Shown here: positions 50,811-57,625 of the stretch, in pieces
Numbering within the stretch: the first letter of the stretch is position 1
How the letters are laid out: the number at the start of each line of letters is the position of its first letter
NCBI GenBank assembly: GCA_028278125.1
Contig: JANQEY010000145.1
Coordinates: forward strand, 32,814-96,813
DNA: 64,000 nucleotides
Source of the DNA: a bacterium
Lineage (GTDB): Bacteria > Electryoneota > Electryoneia > Electryoneales > Electryoneaceae
Direction of reading: 5' to 3'
The notes under the pieces: generated by a model
Seen by the model: the letters and a program-made list of their open reading frames with translations, nothing else
Database searches by the model: none
What the model was told of the DNA's origin: nothing
Position numbers and translations under genes: made by a program

Positions 50811-52178
50811 TTACTCTTTCCATGCCTTTTTAGCTTCCGGGGAAACAATTATCCATCCACGATTGAGAATTCCGATCGGTTTTGCAGTCAATTCTTCCCC
50901 GGCAAACGATGTATTTTTCCCCTTGCTGAAGAAATTAGTCGGTTCAACAGTCCATTTACAGACAGGATCAATCATTGTCAAGTCAGCTACGCTTCCCTCC
51001 TGTATTGTTGCCGGTGGATGCCGCATTATGTTGCGCGGATTTACAGCCATCTTTTCCACCAGCTGAGGCCAGTCCATGATACCTGTATTGATCAGTTCCC
51101 TGACCACAACACCGACCGCGGTTTCCAACCCAACCACTCCAAAAGGCGCCCTGTTAAATTCTACCAGCTTATCTTCATGGGTATGCGGTGCATGATCTGT
51201 TGCTATACAGTCGATTGTTCCGTCTTTTAAACCTTCTATAACAGCCAACCGGTCCTGTTCTGTTCCCAGTGGAGGATTCATTTTGAAATTGGCATCGTAA
51301 CTGGTACACGCTTCATCATTCAGGGCAATATGGTGTGGTGTTGCTTCGCAGGTAACATTAACACCCTTCGCCTTCGCGTACCGGACATGCCTGACCGATT
51401 CTTCGCTGGAAATATGGCCAACATGAACTCGTCCACCTGTGAACTCAGCAAGAAGAATATCCCTTGCGACAATAATTGATTCCGCCAGTGACGGCCAGGG
51501 TGCCAGACCCAGCTGGGTACTGATTTCACCCTCACGCATTACTCCTTCACTGGATATTTCTTTGTCTTCAGAGTGTGTAGAAATTACCAGGTCATGCATT
51601 GAGGAGTATTCCAGTGCACGTCGCATAACTTCCGAACTAGTGACAGAATCCCCATCGTTGGATATCATTCTCACACCGGCGTGGTACAGGTCACTGATCT
51701 CGGACAGTTCACCGCCCTTGCGTCCCTTGGTAACAGCACCCACAGGATGGACACCCACCAGCGATCCCACTGCCATATCATATACCCAGCGGATAACACC
51801 AACGTTATCCAGTGGTGGGTCAGTATTCGGCATACATGCGACACCTGTAAATCCACCAGCTGCGGCCGCGGTTGTTCCGGTAAGGATAGTCTCTTTATCC
51901 TCTCTGCCGGGTTCCCTGAGATGGACATGCATGTCAAAAAATCCGGGCGCGATAATTTTGCCTTTCAAATCCAGGGTTTTATAATCACTCAAGGATGATT
52001 TATCGATTTTTCCGACCTGTTTAATTACTCCTCTTTCAACAAGGATATCCGTCTTTTCATCCATATTGAGAGCAGGATCTATAACTCGTGCATTCGTCAA
52101 TAGAACCAGGGATGTTTTAGTAACCAGCCAGCCCCTGTTTACCATCAGGTCAGCTGCTTCTTCAGATTTCCAACTCAT
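50811..52178 (-). CDS. pyrC: Dihydroorotase
   Basis: About 455 residues from ATG 52178, preceded by CAGGGGGTGAAA; a GTG six bases upstream lies inside that site. Zn ligands HVHLREPGREDKETI, the Lys-equivalent TATGR-type loops, and DHAPHTHEDK mark a class I dihydroorotase of the amidohydrolase superfamily. It closes carbamoyl-aspartate to dihydroorotate in pyrimidine synthesis. It overlaps the 3' end of pyrB by 17 bases, so translation is coupled. Regulated with the operon by the PyrR leader upstream. Confidence 0.94.
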   Translation of the reverse strand: MSWKSEEAADLMVNRGWLVTKTSLVLLTNARVIDPALNMDEKTDILVERGVIKQVGKIDKSSLSDYKTLDLKGKIIAPGFFDMHVHLREPGREDKETILTGTTAAAAGGFTGVACMPNTDPPLDNVGVIRWVYDMAVGSLVGVHPVGAVTKGRKGGELSEISDLYHAGVRMISNDGDSVTSSEVMRRALEYSSMHDLVISTHSEDKEISSEGVMREGEISTQLGLAPWPSLAESIIVARDILLAEFTGGRVHVGHISSEESVRHVRYAKAKGVNVTCEATPHHIALNDEACTSYDANFKMNPPLGTEQDRLAVIEGLKDGTIDCIATDHAPHTHEDKLVEFNRAPFGVVGLETAVGVVVRELINTGIMDWPQLVEKMAVNPRNIMRHPPATIQEGSVADLTMIDPVCKWTVEPTNFFSKGKNTSFAGEELTAKPIGILNRGWIIVSPEAKKAWKE

Positions 52179-53097
52179 TTTCACCCCCTGCTATTAAAAA
52201 TAGAACTGCCATTCGTACCGCCACTCCATTTGTTACCTGTTGCAGAATTACGCTCTGTTTTCCGTCCGCAACGTCCGAGTCAATTTCCACTCCCCGGTTC
52301 ATAGGACCAGGATGCATAATCACCAGGTCTTTTGGCGCTTTGTCCAGCCGTTCACGTGTTATTCCATATTCAGCGTGGTATTCACGAATTGACGGGAAAA
52401 GCCCGGCTTGTTGCCGTTCAAGCTGAATTCGCAGAATGTTAAGGCAATCCGAGTTTGCGACAGCTTCAGACAGGTCATGATATACCTTAACGCCCAGTTT
52501 TCCTAAATGTCGCGGGATCAGGGTAGGAGGTCCACAAACCGCTACCTGTGCACCCATTGCCGATAATCCATAGATATTTGATAGAGCTACACGACTATGC
52601 GCAATATCGCCAACCAGGGTAACCCTGAGGTCTTCAAAGGAACCGAAAACCTCCCGGATAGTCATCATGTCCAGCAGGGCCTGAGTTGGATGTTCATGCG
52701 CGCCATCTCCGGCGTTAATAACTTTCGAGGAACAATGATTTGCCAGTAATGTGGGTGCGCCCGGGAATGGATGGCGCATCACGACCATGTCGATTTTCAT
52801 CGCTTCGATATTTTTTACCGTATCAATCAGGGTTTCACCCTTTTTCACGGACGAGGTTGACGCTGAGAAGTTGACTACGTCAGCCGACAACCGTTTCTGC
52901 GCCAACTCAAAACTGATCCTGGTACGTGTAGAATTTTCGAAAAAGAGGTTCACCACGGTCACATGACGAAGCGTTGGAACCTTGGGAATCGGCCGTTCGA
53001 GAATTTCTTTAAAGGAAACAGCCGCATCGAGGATTGTCTGAATATCCTCCTTGCTGACTCCCTCAAGGCCTAGTAGGTGACGAGAAGCTATACCCAT
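52162..53097 (-). CDS. pyrB: Aspartate carbamoyltransferase catalytic chain
   Basis: 311 residues from ATG 53097, which has GAGGAGG upstream; longer in-frame extensions lie in pyrR. Carbamoyl-phosphate motif FFENSTRTRISFE, SASTSSVKKGETLIDT, HPTQALLD, and MHPGPMNRGVEID. Forms carbamoyl-aspartate. No pyrI regulatory chain is adjacent, consistent with the PyrR-regulated type. The start lies immediately after the pyrR stop. Confidence 0.96.
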   Translation of the reverse strand: MGIASRHLLGLEGVSKEDIQTILDAAVSFKEILERPIPKVPTLRHVTVVNLFFENSTRTRISFELAQKRLSADVVNFSASTSSVKKGETLIDTVKNIEAMKIDMVVMRHPFPGAPTLLANHCSSKVINAGDGAHEHPTQALLDMMTIREVFGSFEDLRVTLVGDIAHSRVALSNIYGLSAMGAQVAVCGPPTLIPRHLGKLGVKVYHDLSEAVANSDCLNILRIQLERQQAGLFPSIREYHAEYGITRERLDKAPKDLVIMHPGPMNRGVEIDSDVADGKQSVILQQVTNGVAVRMAVLFLIAGGENELEI

Positions 53098-53098
53098 T

Positions 53099-53662
<564 letters not shown>

Positions 53663-53694
53663 CTATAGATAGTTCTTTGTTTCCTGAAACGTAT

Positions 53695-53730
53695 AAAAAA
53701 ACGCGCTCAACTGATTTAAGTGAGCGCGTT
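53695..53730 (-). terminator. Attenuator (intrinsic terminator) in the pyr leader
   Basis: On the minus strand AACGCGCTCA (53730-53721) pairs perfectly with TGAGCGCGTT (53709-53700) around an 11-base loop, then seven T (53701-53695). It lies 42 bases before the pyrR start, downstream of any promoter for the operon, so it must act as an attenuator, not an ordinary terminator. Confidence 0.92.
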
Positions 53731-53841
53731 CTCGTTTATAACAGAGTATATAAAAACAACAAAATCAAGATCTCCAGGTGCTTTTTTACCCTGGTAATCC
53801 TGATCCAAAATTGTCTGTACCGTATTTTCTAATTTAAACAT
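53716..53841 (-). CDS. 41-residue pyr operon leader peptide
   Basis: Unlisted short ORF: ATG 53841-53839 through TAA 53718-53716 (41 residues; begins MFKLENTVQTILDQDYQ, ends INENALT). AGGGAG lies six bases before the ATG. The first AAAGGG of this site is the 3' arm of the PyrR hairpin. The stop codon sits in the loop of the attenuator, and codons 38-40 form its 5' arm. It should therefore be regulatory: a ribosome reaching the stop would cover the terminator arm. The peptide itself shows no recognised family. Confidence is for a translated control ORF, inferred from this spacing. Confidence 0.75.
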   Translation of the reverse strand: MFKLENTVQTILDQDYQGKKAPGDLDFVVFIYSVINENALT

Positions 53842-53849
53842 TCTCCACT

Positions 53850-53883
53850 CCCTTTCCCGCCTCTCCGGACAGGATTTAAAGGG
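53850..53883 (-). promoter_or_regulatory. PyrR-binding RNA hairpin in the pyr leader
   Basis: Minus-strand RNA: lower stem CCCUUU (53883-53878) with AAAGGG (53855-53850), internal AAAU bulge, upper stem CCUG with CGGG (one wobble) and loop UCCGGAGAGG. This fits the PyrR consensus core (UCCNGNGAGG in a loop, G before and C after) closely. Binding by PyrR with UMP would hold the AAAGGG part of the leader ORF ribosome site. Confidence 0.88.
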
Positions 53884-54031
53884 TTTCGTCGAAGATAAAG
53901 TATCTGGGTATATGAGGCAAGTACGATTTTAAATTGATTGTTCTGAGAACTCTCATTCGATAATTGGAGCCGGGATTTCTTGAAAAAGGGAAGAGTATTG
54001 TAGCGGTAATATTAACAGGTCTATTTGAATA

Positions 54032-54685
54032 TCAACCTTTATGTTGAAACATCAAATTCCAGGCGGAATTTGCATTTGCCCTGAGGTCGTCGATGGAACC
54101 GTCATTCTTAATTACTATATCTGATCGTTGAGCCTTTTCTTTGGGATCGATCTGGTTATTCCAGCGATCATTCATCTCTTCAACAGTTAATCCGGTTCGT
54201 TCAGCCGCGCGTTTAACCGCGGTATCTCTGTCAGATAAAACCGTAATTATCAGATCATAACGTTCACTGTCGTTCCATTCGAAGATCAAAGCCGCGTCTA
54301 CTACAGCAACCTTGTTATTATCGATAACTTCTCTTATGGAATTTTTCAGTTTTTCTTTGATAAATGGCCAGATTGCCTGGTCAAGGTCTTCCCTGCTTTT
54401 TACGTCACTGAATACGATCCGGCCCAGTTCTGCCCTGTTGAGGATTCCATCTCTAAAAATTCTGCTGCCATAGCGACTTTCTAACCAGGAACGGAACTGC
54501 TCAGATTCATCTACTACCTGTTTACCGAGTATATCACCTTCGATAATTTTTGCGCCCCTGTCTGCAAAGACTTTGGCAACGGTTGATTTCCCTGAACCAA
54601 TCCCCCCGGTTAGTGCAACTAAGGATGGTATTGATGTCCAATCGATTATTGGCACCCTGAATTGTGTCAGGATACTATTCTTCAT
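54032..54685 (-). CDS. coaE: Dephospho-CoA kinase
   Basis: 217 residues. P-loop LTGGIGSGKSTVAKVFADRGA, then EGDILGKQVVDES, and VDAALIFEWNDSERYDLIITV with the lid/CoA segments RTGLTVEEMNDRWNNQIDPKEKAQRSDIVIKNDG. Last step of coenzyme A synthesis. About 20 residues before the usual start (MKNSILTQFRVPIIDWTSIPS) are extra. It overlaps the TPR gene upstream by 11 bases. Downstream lies the pyr leader, so its transcript should end before or within 53884-54031; I see no strong terminator there. Confidence 0.94.
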   Translation of the reverse strand: MKNSILTQFRVPIIDWTSIPSLVALTGGIGSGKSTVAKVFADRGAKIIEGDILGKQVVDESEQFRSWLESRYGSRIFRDGILNRAELGRIVFSDVKSREDLDQAIWPFIKEKLKNSIREVIDNNKVAVVDAALIFEWNDSERYDLIITVLSDRDTAVKRAAERTGLTVEEMNDRWNNQIDPKEKAQRSDIVIKNDGSIDDLRANANSAWNLMFQHKG

Positions 54686-57485
54686 TCTCTTGTTCTGCTA
54701 TCTGCTTTTCAGCTTCATTCAAGATTGCGATAACTTCAGGATCGTTCGGGTTTTTATCCAGGAGTTTTTCACAGACTTTTTTCGCCAGGCCGGCCTGTCC
54801 CTGCTGCAGTAGTACATTGGCAAATGTTTTGGTAACGGGTCCCCTGATCTCTTCAGCGTCTTCATCAGTTATCTGGGCGGAATCAATGACAGATTCGGTG
54901 TCTGCAACTGTCTCGAATTCAGGCGTCTCTTGGGTTACAGAATCTTCAATGGAAGCTAAATCGCTAAGCTCGGCCTGTAGATTATTAATATCATCCTGGT
55001 CCAGTCCCTTGCCTGCTTTCCTGGCAGGTTCAGGTTTATCCACAGGTTTGGATTCCTCAACATCCTTTTCCAATGCTTCCGCTTTTAATGCCTCTATATC
55101 AGTTTGAGACAACGAACCGCCTGGTTCCTCGGTTACAGGCTTATCTTCGACAGGTTCTTCCCGCGATTTTGCAGATGTTTCAGCTTTTAAAGCTTCTATA
55201 TCTGCCTGGCTAAGCGAACCACCTGTCTCCTCAGCTGGGAGTACAGATTCTTTAACTTCCTCCGTTACCGTTCCGGATGTTTCAGCTTTTAATGCTTCTA
55301 TATCTGCCTGGCTAAGCGAACCACCTGTCTCCTCAGCTGGGGGTACAGGTTCTTTAACTTCCTCCGTTACCGTTCCGGCTGATTCAGCTTTTAATGCTTC
55401 TATATCTGACTGGCTGAGCGTTCCACCTGTCTCCTCAGCTGGAGGTGCGGGTTCTTTTACTTCTTCCTCTACCGTTCCGGCTGGTTCAGCTTTTAATGCC
55501 TCAATATCTGCCTGGCTGAGAGCACCACCTTCAGTAGTATCCGGTTCTGGTTCTACCGACTCAACCTCTATTTCCTGAGAAACTGTTTCTTCTTCCACAG
55601 ATTCAACGGTAGTCGATCTGTATTGAGCCTTCAAACTTTCAATTGCACCTTGTACATTTCCATTATCTTCTTGTGTAATGTCACCGGATGGTTCATCTGC
55701 AGCAAATATTTGTTTAAGTTCTTCCTTATCATTATCATTCAGTTCATAATCGACTTCCCCCCCATCAGTTTCAGCCTCTTCTTCGACTTCATCCTCGTCA
55801 GGAATTACCGGTTGCGGGACAAGTAAAAAAGCATCGCCTTTCAGTTTATCGAGAATTTCGGGAGCATCGATCAGCTCTTCCGTTTCCACATCGAGATTGG
55901 CTAATATTTCAGATAATGAAATTTCCTCTACCGATTCAGAAGTCTCCACCTGTTCAGAATCCGCGTCAACTTCTTCATTTTTTGCTATTTCAGCTGATTC
56001 CTTTTTCTTCTGTTTCGCCTCTTCTTCCTCAACAAATTTATCGACAAGCTCTTCTGCGCTCGAGAAACCAGATTCTTCATTGATAATTTCAGAAAGTGCT
56101 TTTTCTATATCCATAACTTCTTTTTGCAGGGGTGGTATTTCTTCTTCAGAGTCTGCACCTTCAACGGCAACCTTCGCTGCTTCATCTTGCACCTGGTCAC
56201 TGGTCTCTTCAGAAATTCCGCTACCTTCCCCTTGCTCCAATGATTCATCTATTGCTGCTTCTGTTTCATTCTCCTCATCTTGATCATCAATCAGGGTTGA
56301 AAGGAAATCGCTTTCATCCGCTTCACCCTCAGCCTCATCAGCAACGGATTCAACCCCAGGTTCCGCTTCTACCGGTTCGGTTTGAACATTATCCGTGACG
56401 GGTTCGTCTTCTTCGATAGGTTCTATTTCAGCCGTCTCGGGCACTTCTTCCACTGGAGAATCAGTGTTAGTTGTTTCTTGTTCAACTTCAGGTTCAAGTG
56501 ATTCAAGGATATCGAGGGATTCAAGTTCTCCTGTAATGTCATCGTCATCTGTATCTTCTGGAGTCTGTGTAATTTCTTCAGTGATCTCTCCCGGATCATC
56601 TACCTCTTCCACCTGGTCATCGAGCGAGACACTACTTACATGAACGGTTTCAGAATCATCTTCACTATCACCATTAAAGATTGTCGCCAGTCCTGATTCA
56701 TCATACTCCAGTTCTTCCGGCGTTGATGACTCAGGAAAAGCAGAACTTTTCTCCTCTTCAGTTTTTTCAATAGTTTCCGGTTCTCTGACTACTGCTTCTG
56801 CATCAGCTTCTTTTATTTCTTGTTCAACAGCTTCAGTAGCAACTGTAATGTTTTCATCTGGTTCCGGAGGTTCTGTCTCCATCGCAACCTGTTTAACAAT
56901 TTCGTTTACCGCGGTGAGATCCAGTTTCGGACTAAAACCTTCAGGCAATGGCTGCCTGGATTTGGTAAGTCCTAAATCATTGGCAACTCGTTGCGAAAAC
57001 GCTCCCGCGTAGGTAAAATCGGCTGGATGCCAGTCAGCAGGCCAGGCACTAATCTCAGGATTTTCCTTTTTTACACGTGTTAATAACTGGCGATGAAGGC
57101 GGCGTTGATTTTCCTCGTTGAGTGGATCAATTCTGTATAGATCAAACAATGCTCGTCTTAAAGCTTCCGGGTTTTCAGCGACCGCAAGCTCAGAAATGTA
57201 ACCAGCGAGCGCTTTTTGATTCATCGGTTCTTTTTCATGGGCGATCTTCCATTGACGTAGAGCCTCATCACTTTTACTCAATGCCGATAAACATTCTGCA
57301 AGTAGGATTCGAGCTGTTGTATAGTCCGGGTTTTGATCAAGTCCCTGTTCAAGCCGTTTTTTCGCGGCTTTATATTGCCCCTGTTCCATTTCCAGGCTGG
57401 CAATATGCGCAAAAAGAAATGAATGTTCTTTTTCAAGTTTTTTTAATTCTTTCTGTTTGCGCTTTATTTGACCCTTGTCACCCAT
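54675..57485 (-). CDS. Long acidic TPR protein with tandem LSQxDIEAL motifs
   Basis: About 936 residues from ATG 57485, four bases after GGAGGT; ATG 57488 is also possible, and longer frames are unsupported. The N-terminal part (about 1-150) is TPR-like (LFAHIASLEMEQGQYKAAKKRLEQGLDQNPDYTTARILLAECLSAL). The middle is long, Glu-rich and probably disordered. Residues about 650-850 contain five copies of LSQ(A/S/T)DIEALKAE plus a degenerate GLDQDDINNLQAE, roughly 35 residues apart. The end has one further TPR-like helix pair (TFANVLLQQGQAGLAKKVCEKLLDKNPNDPEVIAIL). No signal peptide, so cytoplasmic. The motif resembles the N-terminal FliM/CheY-docking peptide. Function unknown. Confidence 0.82.
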   Translation of the reverse strand: MGDKGQIKRKQKELKKLEKEHSFLFAHIASLEMEQGQYKAAKKRLEQGLDQNPDYTTARILLAECLSALSKSDEALRQWKIAHEKEPMNQKALAGYISELAVAENPEALRRALFDLYRIDPLNEENQRRLHRQLLTRVKKENPEISAWPADWHPADFTYAGAFSQRVANDLGLTKSRQPLPEGFSPKLDLTAVNEIVKQVAMETEPPEPDENITVATEAVEQEIKEADAEAVVREPETIEKTEEEKSSAFPESSTPEELEYDESGLATIFNGDSEDDSETVHVSSVSLDDQVEEVDDPGEITEEITQTPEDTDDDDITGELESLDILESLEPEVEQETTNTDSPVEEVPETAEIEPIEEDEPVTDNVQTEPVEAEPGVESVADEAEGEADESDFLSTLIDDQDEENETEAAIDESLEQGEGSGISEETSDQVQDEAAKVAVEGADSEEEIPPLQKEVMDIEKALSEIINEESGFSSAEELVDKFVEEEEAKQKKKESAEIAKNEEVDADSEQVETSESVEEISLSEILANLDVETEELIDAPEILDKLKGDAFLLVPQPVIPDEDEVEEEAETDGGEVDYELNDNDKEELKQIFAADEPSGDITQEDNGNVQGAIESLKAQYRSTTVESVEEETVSQEIEVESVEPEPDTTEGGALSQADIEALKAEPAGTVEEEVKEPAPPAEETGGTLSQSDIEALKAESAGTVTEEVKEPVPPAEETGGSLSQADIEALKAETSGTVTEEVKESVLPAEETGGSLSQADIEALKAETSAKSREEPVEDKPVTEEPGGSLSQTDIEALKAEALEKDVEESKPVDKPEPARKAGKGLDQDDINNLQAELSDLASIEDSVTQETPEFETVADTESVIDSAQITDEDAEEIRGPVTKTFANVLLQQGQAGLAKKVCEKLLDKNPNDPEVIAILNEAEKQIAEQENEE
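54976..55530 (-). repeat. Tandem coding repeats of ~105 bp in the acidic TPR gene
   Basis: The LSQxDIEAL units are encoded by DNA repeats of about 105 bases; the copies spanning about 55186-55395 are close to identical over CTTCTATATCTGCCTGGCT, GCGAACCACCTGTCTCC and TAACTTCCTCCGTTACCG. The outer copies are more diverged. This fits expansion by recent tandem duplication. Confidence 0.85.
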
Positions 57486-57625
57486 CATACCTCCGAAGGA
57501 TCTATAATAAATTGAATATAACCAAATATAAGGAAAATTAGTCGAAAACAATCTTTCAGGATTATAAAAGTGCTAATAGTTGAGCATTCACAAAGAAAAA
57601 TGGTGTGATACTAATATTTCCCCTC

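Follow-up and report, generated by a model that had tools for sequence, protein, structure and literature searches.

The pyrR leader and its operon

The DNA analyzed here is a segment of 64,000 nucleotides (nt) of contig JANQEY010000145.1 (positions 32,814 to 96,813; assembly GCA_028278125.1), referred to below as the window. On its reverse strand the pyrimidine genes lie in the order pyrR-pyrB-pyrC and are preceded by a leader with a predicted binding loop for the PyrR protein, a short open reading frame (ORF) whose putative Shine-Dalgarno (SD) sequence overlaps the 3' arm of that loop, and two hairpins, T1 and T2, the second of which is a strong intrinsic terminator upstream of pyrR (Table 1). 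The ORF spans T1, the 5' arm of T2 and part of the T2 loop. Judging from this arrangement, from the codon usage of the ORF and from the comparison of related leaders, we propose that the element is probably a PyrR-gated, translation-coupled transcription attenuator.

Table 1. Features of the pyr leader and operon in the window (positions in the window; all on the reverse strand)
Feature	Position	Strand	Remarks
PyrR binding loop	53850..53883	-	CCCUUU/AAAGGG in the lower stem; UCCGGAGAGG region at the top of the upper stem
SD-like sequence of the leader ORF	53848..53855	-	AAAGGGAG; overlaps the 3' arm of the PyrR loop
Leader ORF, 41 codons	53716..53841	-	MFKLENTVQTILDQDYQGKKAPGDLDFVVFIYSVINENALT; ATG at 53841; TAA at 53718-53716, inside the T2 loop
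T1 5' arm	53787..53808	-	complementarity with the loop 5' strand (~53884-53865); possible alternative helix
T1 hairpin, inside the ORF	53763..53805	-	~-20 kcal/mol; U-rich tail UUGUUGUUUUUAUAU
T2, strong intrinsic terminator	53695..53730	-	stem AACGCGCTCA/TGAGCGCGTT and U tract; from folds
pyrR	53099..53653	-	184 aa; NF003549, 238.7 bits (cut-off 138)
pyrB, aspartate carbamoyltransferase	52162..53097	-	follows pyrR
pyrC, dihydroorotase	50811..52184	-	overlaps pyrB; start codon uncertain

An initial annotation of this leader had described a PyrR hairpin, a 41-codon ORF with its SD sequence in the 3' arm of that hairpin, and, before pyrR, a strong terminator whose loop contains the stop codon; all three are readily found in the sequence. 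The CCCTTT..AAAGGG hairpin matches RF00515 with 51.3 bits (E-value 3.5e-6 in a search of 551 bases), which falls just short of the gathering score of 54 bits, and a search of the whole window returned nothing at gathering. Despite this score the stem, the bulge and the loop motif are all present. For the PyrR binding site PMC7430163 gives ARUCCAGAGAGGYU as the conserved core on top of a bulged stem; UGUCCGGAGAGGCG (53871-53858) agrees with it in 11 of 14 positions, and the stem beneath it folds. AAAGGGAG lies within the best SD match of the ORF that starts at 53841, and the PyrR protein itself aligns along its length with solved PyrR structures.

The initial annotation had also reported a gap of 120 bases between hairpin and terminator, which turned out to be occupied by T1 with its U-rich tail. 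According to the folds T1 could be a weak terminator, a pause hairpin or a piece of an alternative fold. T2 (stem-loop 53730-53700) is followed by 7 U residues, two of them able to pair, and is preceded by a U-rich stretch. The d'Aubenton-Carafa terminator score was 9 or 18 for T2 and -7 or 1 for T1, varying with the cut of the stem. A simple terminator scan listed neither hairpin, which probably reflects the restrictions it sets on loops and stems, whereas both are clear in the folds, and the region 53890-53654 as a whole folds with a z-score of -4.28 relative to shuffled sequences. A promoter scan of 52000-55000 gave 6 sites against 5.4 expected.

The codon-usage score of the leader ORF, computed with a reference of 3976 codons from nine window ORFs, is +9.5 in frame versus -7.4 and -5.5 in the other two frames, and none of 500 shuffles scored as high. 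The exact 41-residue product is listed in the protein collection on one contig, so the ORF has already been predicted as a gene. A search for homologues of the peptide, which required shared 5-residue words, returned the window's own copy alone, and a plasmid search with the peptide gave no match at an E-value of 1.

Leader ORFs in related genomes

To place the leader among its relatives, PyrR homologs were collected by a contig search (80 loci taken among the matches listed) and from four groups of genomes: the phylum of G001, the best match of the contig search (38 of 39 genomes with a PyrR match), an Ignavibacteriales-class sample (85/149), a Nitrospirae-phylum sample (144/148) and an Omnitrophota-phylum sample (129/145), the last three named after their anchor records. 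The window was assigned to the phylum of G001 by PyrR identity (80%) alone. Proteins P0002-P0008 show 78-83% PyrR identity. From each of the three large samples the best 30 loci, plus single loci, entered the discovery set, and 20 to 33 further loci the test set. In discovery, 211 oriented regions including the window reduced to 189 distinct ones, of which 149 match a fixed sequence pattern for the PyrR loop (1.2 expected under mononucleotide shuffling); 40 regions without a loop and 8 of the 149 without a terminator were left out, so that 141 leaders remained. The test set comprised 56 leaders, after removal of 16 regions without a loop, 2 duplicates and 6 without a terminator from 80 newly fetched ones. 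The criterion, an ATG at +3..+13 after the loop and an ORF that continues through the terminator, was fixed before the test set was drawn, and expected counts (given below in parentheses) were obtained from 300 sets with dinucleotide-shuffled spacers. For the window and for locus L081 the terminator finder takes T1 rather than T2.

Among the discovery leaders 82 have an ATG in place (37.8) and 57 an ORF through the terminator (18.1); in the test set the numbers are 44 (15.5) and 33 (6.6), and in neither set was any of the 300 shuffled sets as high. The excess recurs in separate groups: in discovery in the window's own phylum without the window (24 leaders, ATG 12 (3.8), through 9 (2.2)), in the Nitrospirae sample (25 leaders, 24 (5.8) and 16 (2.9)) and in the Omnitrophota sample (23 leaders, 21 (7.5) and 14 (2.6)), and in the test set in the Nitrospirae (30 leaders, 25 (7.0) and 18 (3.9)), Omnitrophota (17 leaders, 13 (5.9) and 11 (2.0)) and Ignavibacteria samples (9 leaders, 6 (2.6) and 4 (0.7)). 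The density of ATG is 0.048 per base at +0..+5 after the loop and 0.079 at +6..+11, versus 0.008 to 0.027 at +12..+35. Of the 44 ATG-bearing test leaders 33 are open through the terminator in the frame of the ATG; the remaining two frames give 11 and 19. The leaders are related and not independent; clustering all 197 at 70% identity, which lessens the effect of kinship without removing it, left 137 representatives with 86 ATGs (34.6) and 58 ORFs through the terminator (16.5), versus 38 and 36 when the two remaining frames are read. Nearly all ATG-bearing leaders (123 of 126) have an SD match that reaches -4 kcal/mol or better and starts within the loop, a number that is partly built in, as the loop pattern ends with AAGG.

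Among the features that the initial annotation had suggested looking for in related pyrR leaders, the position of the stop codon in the terminator loop is not common to them: in 90 of the 126 leaders with an ATG the ORF continues past the scored terminator. No general purifying selection on the peptide was seen in the close leaders compared: among five close leaders of the Nitrospirae sample 5 of 28 single-change codons are synonymous (0.179 versus 0.246 expected), and four leader pairs gave 2/4, 1/10, 3/8 and 5/7.

The position at which the ORF ends most frequently is pyrR start +1, which gives an ATGA overlap. Of the 126 ATG-bearing leaders 28 have it, and their ORFs span 25 to 94 codons; 18 of the 28 belong to the Nitrospirae sample, where they make up 18 of 49 ATG-bearing leaders. 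In 67 of the 126 the distance between the leader ATG and the pyrR start falls into the residue class of three that corresponds to ATGA. The overlaps, together with this residue class, suggest that in the lineages concerned the leader ribosome also passes on to pyrR. Nitrospirae-sample ATGA overlaps occur at L157, L159, L163, L164, L167, L169, L175, L226 and L228, among others, and a VFLC stretch, whose codons lie across the terminator end, recurs in many leader peptides of this sample.

At L271, L270, L262 and L240 a GTG or TTG follows the loop in place of the ATG, and in 15 of the 51 ATG-less representatives an ORF that begins with such a codon at +3..+18 passes through the terminator, counted without a shuffle control. 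Given such starts, the ATG counts may underestimate the pattern. Taken together, a PyrR-gated leader ORF looks common, as far as leader sequences can tell, in the samples of the window's phylum, of Nitrospirae and of Omnitrophota, and less clearly so in Ignavibacteria.

At 14 loci with titles of Acidobacteria type (L015, L017-L020, L022, L029, L032, L033, L042, L056, L061, L075 and L080) the pattern finds no PyrR loop; they may have either a different loop or a different control.

Observations against the leader ORF as a switch

Several results weigh against the proposed function of the leader ORF. In the Ignavibacteria sample of the discovery set (25 leaders) ATGs number 10 (7.0), a count that 32 of the 300 shuffled sets reach, and ORFs through the terminator 8 (2.8); in the sample of other bacteria (43 leaders) the counts of 14 (13.6) and 9 (7.7) show no excess. 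All seven own-phylum regions of the test set are without a PyrR loop by the pattern. Their PyrR identities (49-54%) are, along with those of some discovery-set regions at 54-58%, the lowest in the phylum list except for weak second matches. The frame control is weaker in discovery, where 57 of 82 ORFs are open in frame versus 42 and 40 in the other frames. The leader peptides lack general conservation, as would be expected were the act of translation all that matters. In the window itself the ORF stops 62 nt before pyrR without an ATGA overlap, and in the counts above it is scored as passing through T1, not through T2.

The nearest relatives of the window give a divided picture. The initial annotation had regarded relatives without the ORF as evidence against its proposal; five of the seven nearest with a readable leader do lack it, whereas L081 and L092 carry it. 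L091 has an ORF of only 8 codons that starts 26 nt after the loop, and L093, L094, L095 and L082 have no ORF with an ATG after the loop. As in the window, the ORF of L081 covers a first hairpin that carries a U6 tail, followed by a second terminator. The PyrR tree joins L081 and L092 (84/91, a branch other than the two starred ones) and does not fix the position of the window beside them. One test of complementarity between loop and terminator gave p 0.034 for L091 and p 0.020 for L093, which did not reach that level in two other tests; L092, L094 and L095 show none in the first test, and L095 has p 0.033 in another. On these leader sequences, the clade may mix two designs. L082 has five copies of a repeat containing GACATTCRTG, ~80-350 bases upstream of pyrR, between the apparent pyr terminator and the gene, with the PyrR loop 525 bases upstream.

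The lack of the ORF in most of these relatives is one of two observations that would agree with a chance ORF in a leader subject to some other regulation, or to none by translation. The other is that an ATG in place and a frame open through T1 arise in 16 of 300 shuffles of the window leader, and for this reason the weight falls on the comparative evidence. We regard this explanation as very improbable: it leaves aside the codon usage of the ORF and the ORF excess in two separate sets.

Pairing between the PyrR loop and the two hairpins

The initial annotation saw no classical antiterminator. This holds for T2, for which no pairing with the PyrR loop better than in shuffled sequences was found (p 0.79 and 0.25). 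For T1 the results are mixed. The duplex of the loop 5' strand with the T1 5' arm (-22.1 kcal/mol) is equaled by only 1 of 1000 shuffles (p 0.001), and by 0 of 500 or with p 0.007 when other cuts are used; on the other hand, it is just 2.7 kcal/mol more stable than the loop fold, a margin that does not surpass shuffles (p 0.87), and over the whole spacer the pairing has p 0.098. In the predicted folds the alternative helix is the lowest-energy structure once the T1 5' arm is out, and the mean unpaired probability of the SD sequence is 0.26 in the loop fold, rises to 0.84 at the point where the T1 5' arm alone has emerged and drops to 0.21 with T1 complete. The helix is a possible alternative fold that would free the SD sequence.

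Such a helix, a possible antiterminator at T1 that would also speak against the preferred reading, could make the window leader a classical PyrR attenuator, in which the antiterminator arises from pairing of the loop 5' strand with the T1 5' arm, PyrR holds the loop so that T1 terminates, the ORF is incidental and T2 acts as a constitutive partial terminator. The strength of the duplex and its place as the lowest-energy fold favor this explanation, which we nevertheless consider unlikely: T2, the stronger terminator, takes no part in such pairing and is left unexplained, as are the codon usage and the cross-group pattern, while the small gain and the whole-spacer value count against the pairing itself.

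Alternatively, the two principles might be combined, with the T1 5' arm opening the SD sequence by pairing, leader translation then overriding both T1 and T2, and PyrR blocking both steps. The rise of SD accessibility from 0.26 to 0.84 is what such a scheme would need, and PMC7430163 offers a parallel in the pyr attenuators of Bacillus subtilis, where the A-B loop serves as an anti-antiterminator and B-C as the antiterminator, with the difference that here the helix would involve the opposite strand of the loop. A weak hint noticed after the fact is that 5'-strand pairing with p<0.05 occurs in 11 of the 126 leaders with an ATG and in none of the 71 without. That count is, however, near the 6 expected, the pairing statistics are as mixed as for the attenuator at T1, accessibility falls back to 0.21 with T1 complete, and L081, with its similar pair of hairpins, shows no pairing of the loop 5' strand with its T1 5' arm. 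We hold the combined scheme to be decidedly unlikely.

Over the full 197 leaders such pairing is uncommon; the 3' strand pairs with p<0.05 in 6 of 126 leaders with an ATG and 7 of 71 without. Three tests for a general antiterminator in ORF-bearing leaders detected none, at low power. One of them gave p<0.05 in 9 of 59 leaders without the ORF versus 6 of 59 with an ORF through the terminator, and another 3/59 versus 0/59. Because few antiterminators were found in ORF-less leaders too, these tests do not prove that ORF-bearing leaders are free of them.

Proposed mechanism and known PyrR systems

The best reading of the window leader remains coupled attenuation of the Thermus type, in a variant with two hairpins. 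With pyrimidine nucleotide present, PyrR would lock the loop and close the SD sequence, no ribosome would trail the RNA polymerase, and T2 (perhaps also T1) would form and stop transcription. Without PyrR bound to uridine monophosphate (UMP), the SD sequence would open and a ribosome would translate the leader up to the stop codon in the T2 loop, so that T2 could not form and pyrR-pyrB-pyrC would be transcribed. T1 probably aids the timing, as a pause or a weak early terminator; pairing of its 5' arm with the loop 5' strand may in addition free the SD sequence. Every step from PyrR binding to read-through is deduced from sequence and predicted structure. The central idea of the initial annotation, PyrR gating of a leader ORF that overlaps a terminator, is strengthened by the cross-group comparison and by the codon usage of this ORF.

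In the scheme reported for the Thermus pyr operon the PyrR loop overlaps the ribosome site of a leader ORF, the ORF overlaps a terminator and no antiterminator is known. The two systems are alike in having the SD sequence of the leader ORF in the PyrR loop and an ORF that extends into the terminator; they differ in that the window, from another lineage, has T1 with its U-rich tail inside the ORF. RF00515 was matched in a Thermus composti control genome.

In Escherichia coli the pyrBI leader encodes pyrL (44 codons), which senses uridine triphosphate (UTP) through pausing of the polymerase. It resembles the leader ORF of the window in its length, in running over the attenuator and in the U-rich stretch shortly before the attenuator stem, but pyrL works without PyrR, while the gate in the window is a PyrR-type hairpin at the SD sequence. 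In Mycobacterium smegmatis the PyrR loop closes the SD sequence of the first gene. The closing of an SD sequence by the loop would be common to both; in the window a leader ORF and a terminator lie between, the loop ends 197 nt before pyrR, and the loop does not cover the SD sequence of the first structural gene; the SD-like AGGGAGAAAGG of pyrR sits downstream of T2.

PMC7430163 presents PyrR as an antitermination regulator in B. subtilis. The window shares with that system the PyrR protein, its binding loop and a terminator before pyrR; it differs in the lack of pairing between the loop and T2, in that any pairing with T1 would use the loop 5' strand, and in the presence of the leader ORF. 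Pairing of this strand (A) would leave the SD sequence free and would hence suit a translation switch.

If leader translation usually serves as the switch in the phylum of the window and in the samples of Nitrospirae and Omnitrophota, the antitermination picture of PyrR is too narrow, and annotation may have missed or misread many short leader ORFs. How translation-gated and antiterminator designs pass into one another could moreover be studied within one phylum, because close relatives of the window seem to differ. A bolder synthesis, to which we give only a small chance, is that PyrR acts mainly as a gate of leader translation in several phyla beyond Firmicutes, with the textbook antiterminator as one branch, that many Nitrospirae-sample leaders hand the ribosome over to pyrR at ATGA, and that in the window T1 adds a UTP-sensitive pause, so that the leader would read both PyrR-UMP and UTP.

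Elsewhere in the window, the region 54675-57551 of the reverse strand encodes a 958-residue protein with several near-identical repeats of the type EETGGSLSQADIEALKAE, which may resemble the short N-terminal motif of FliM/FliN.
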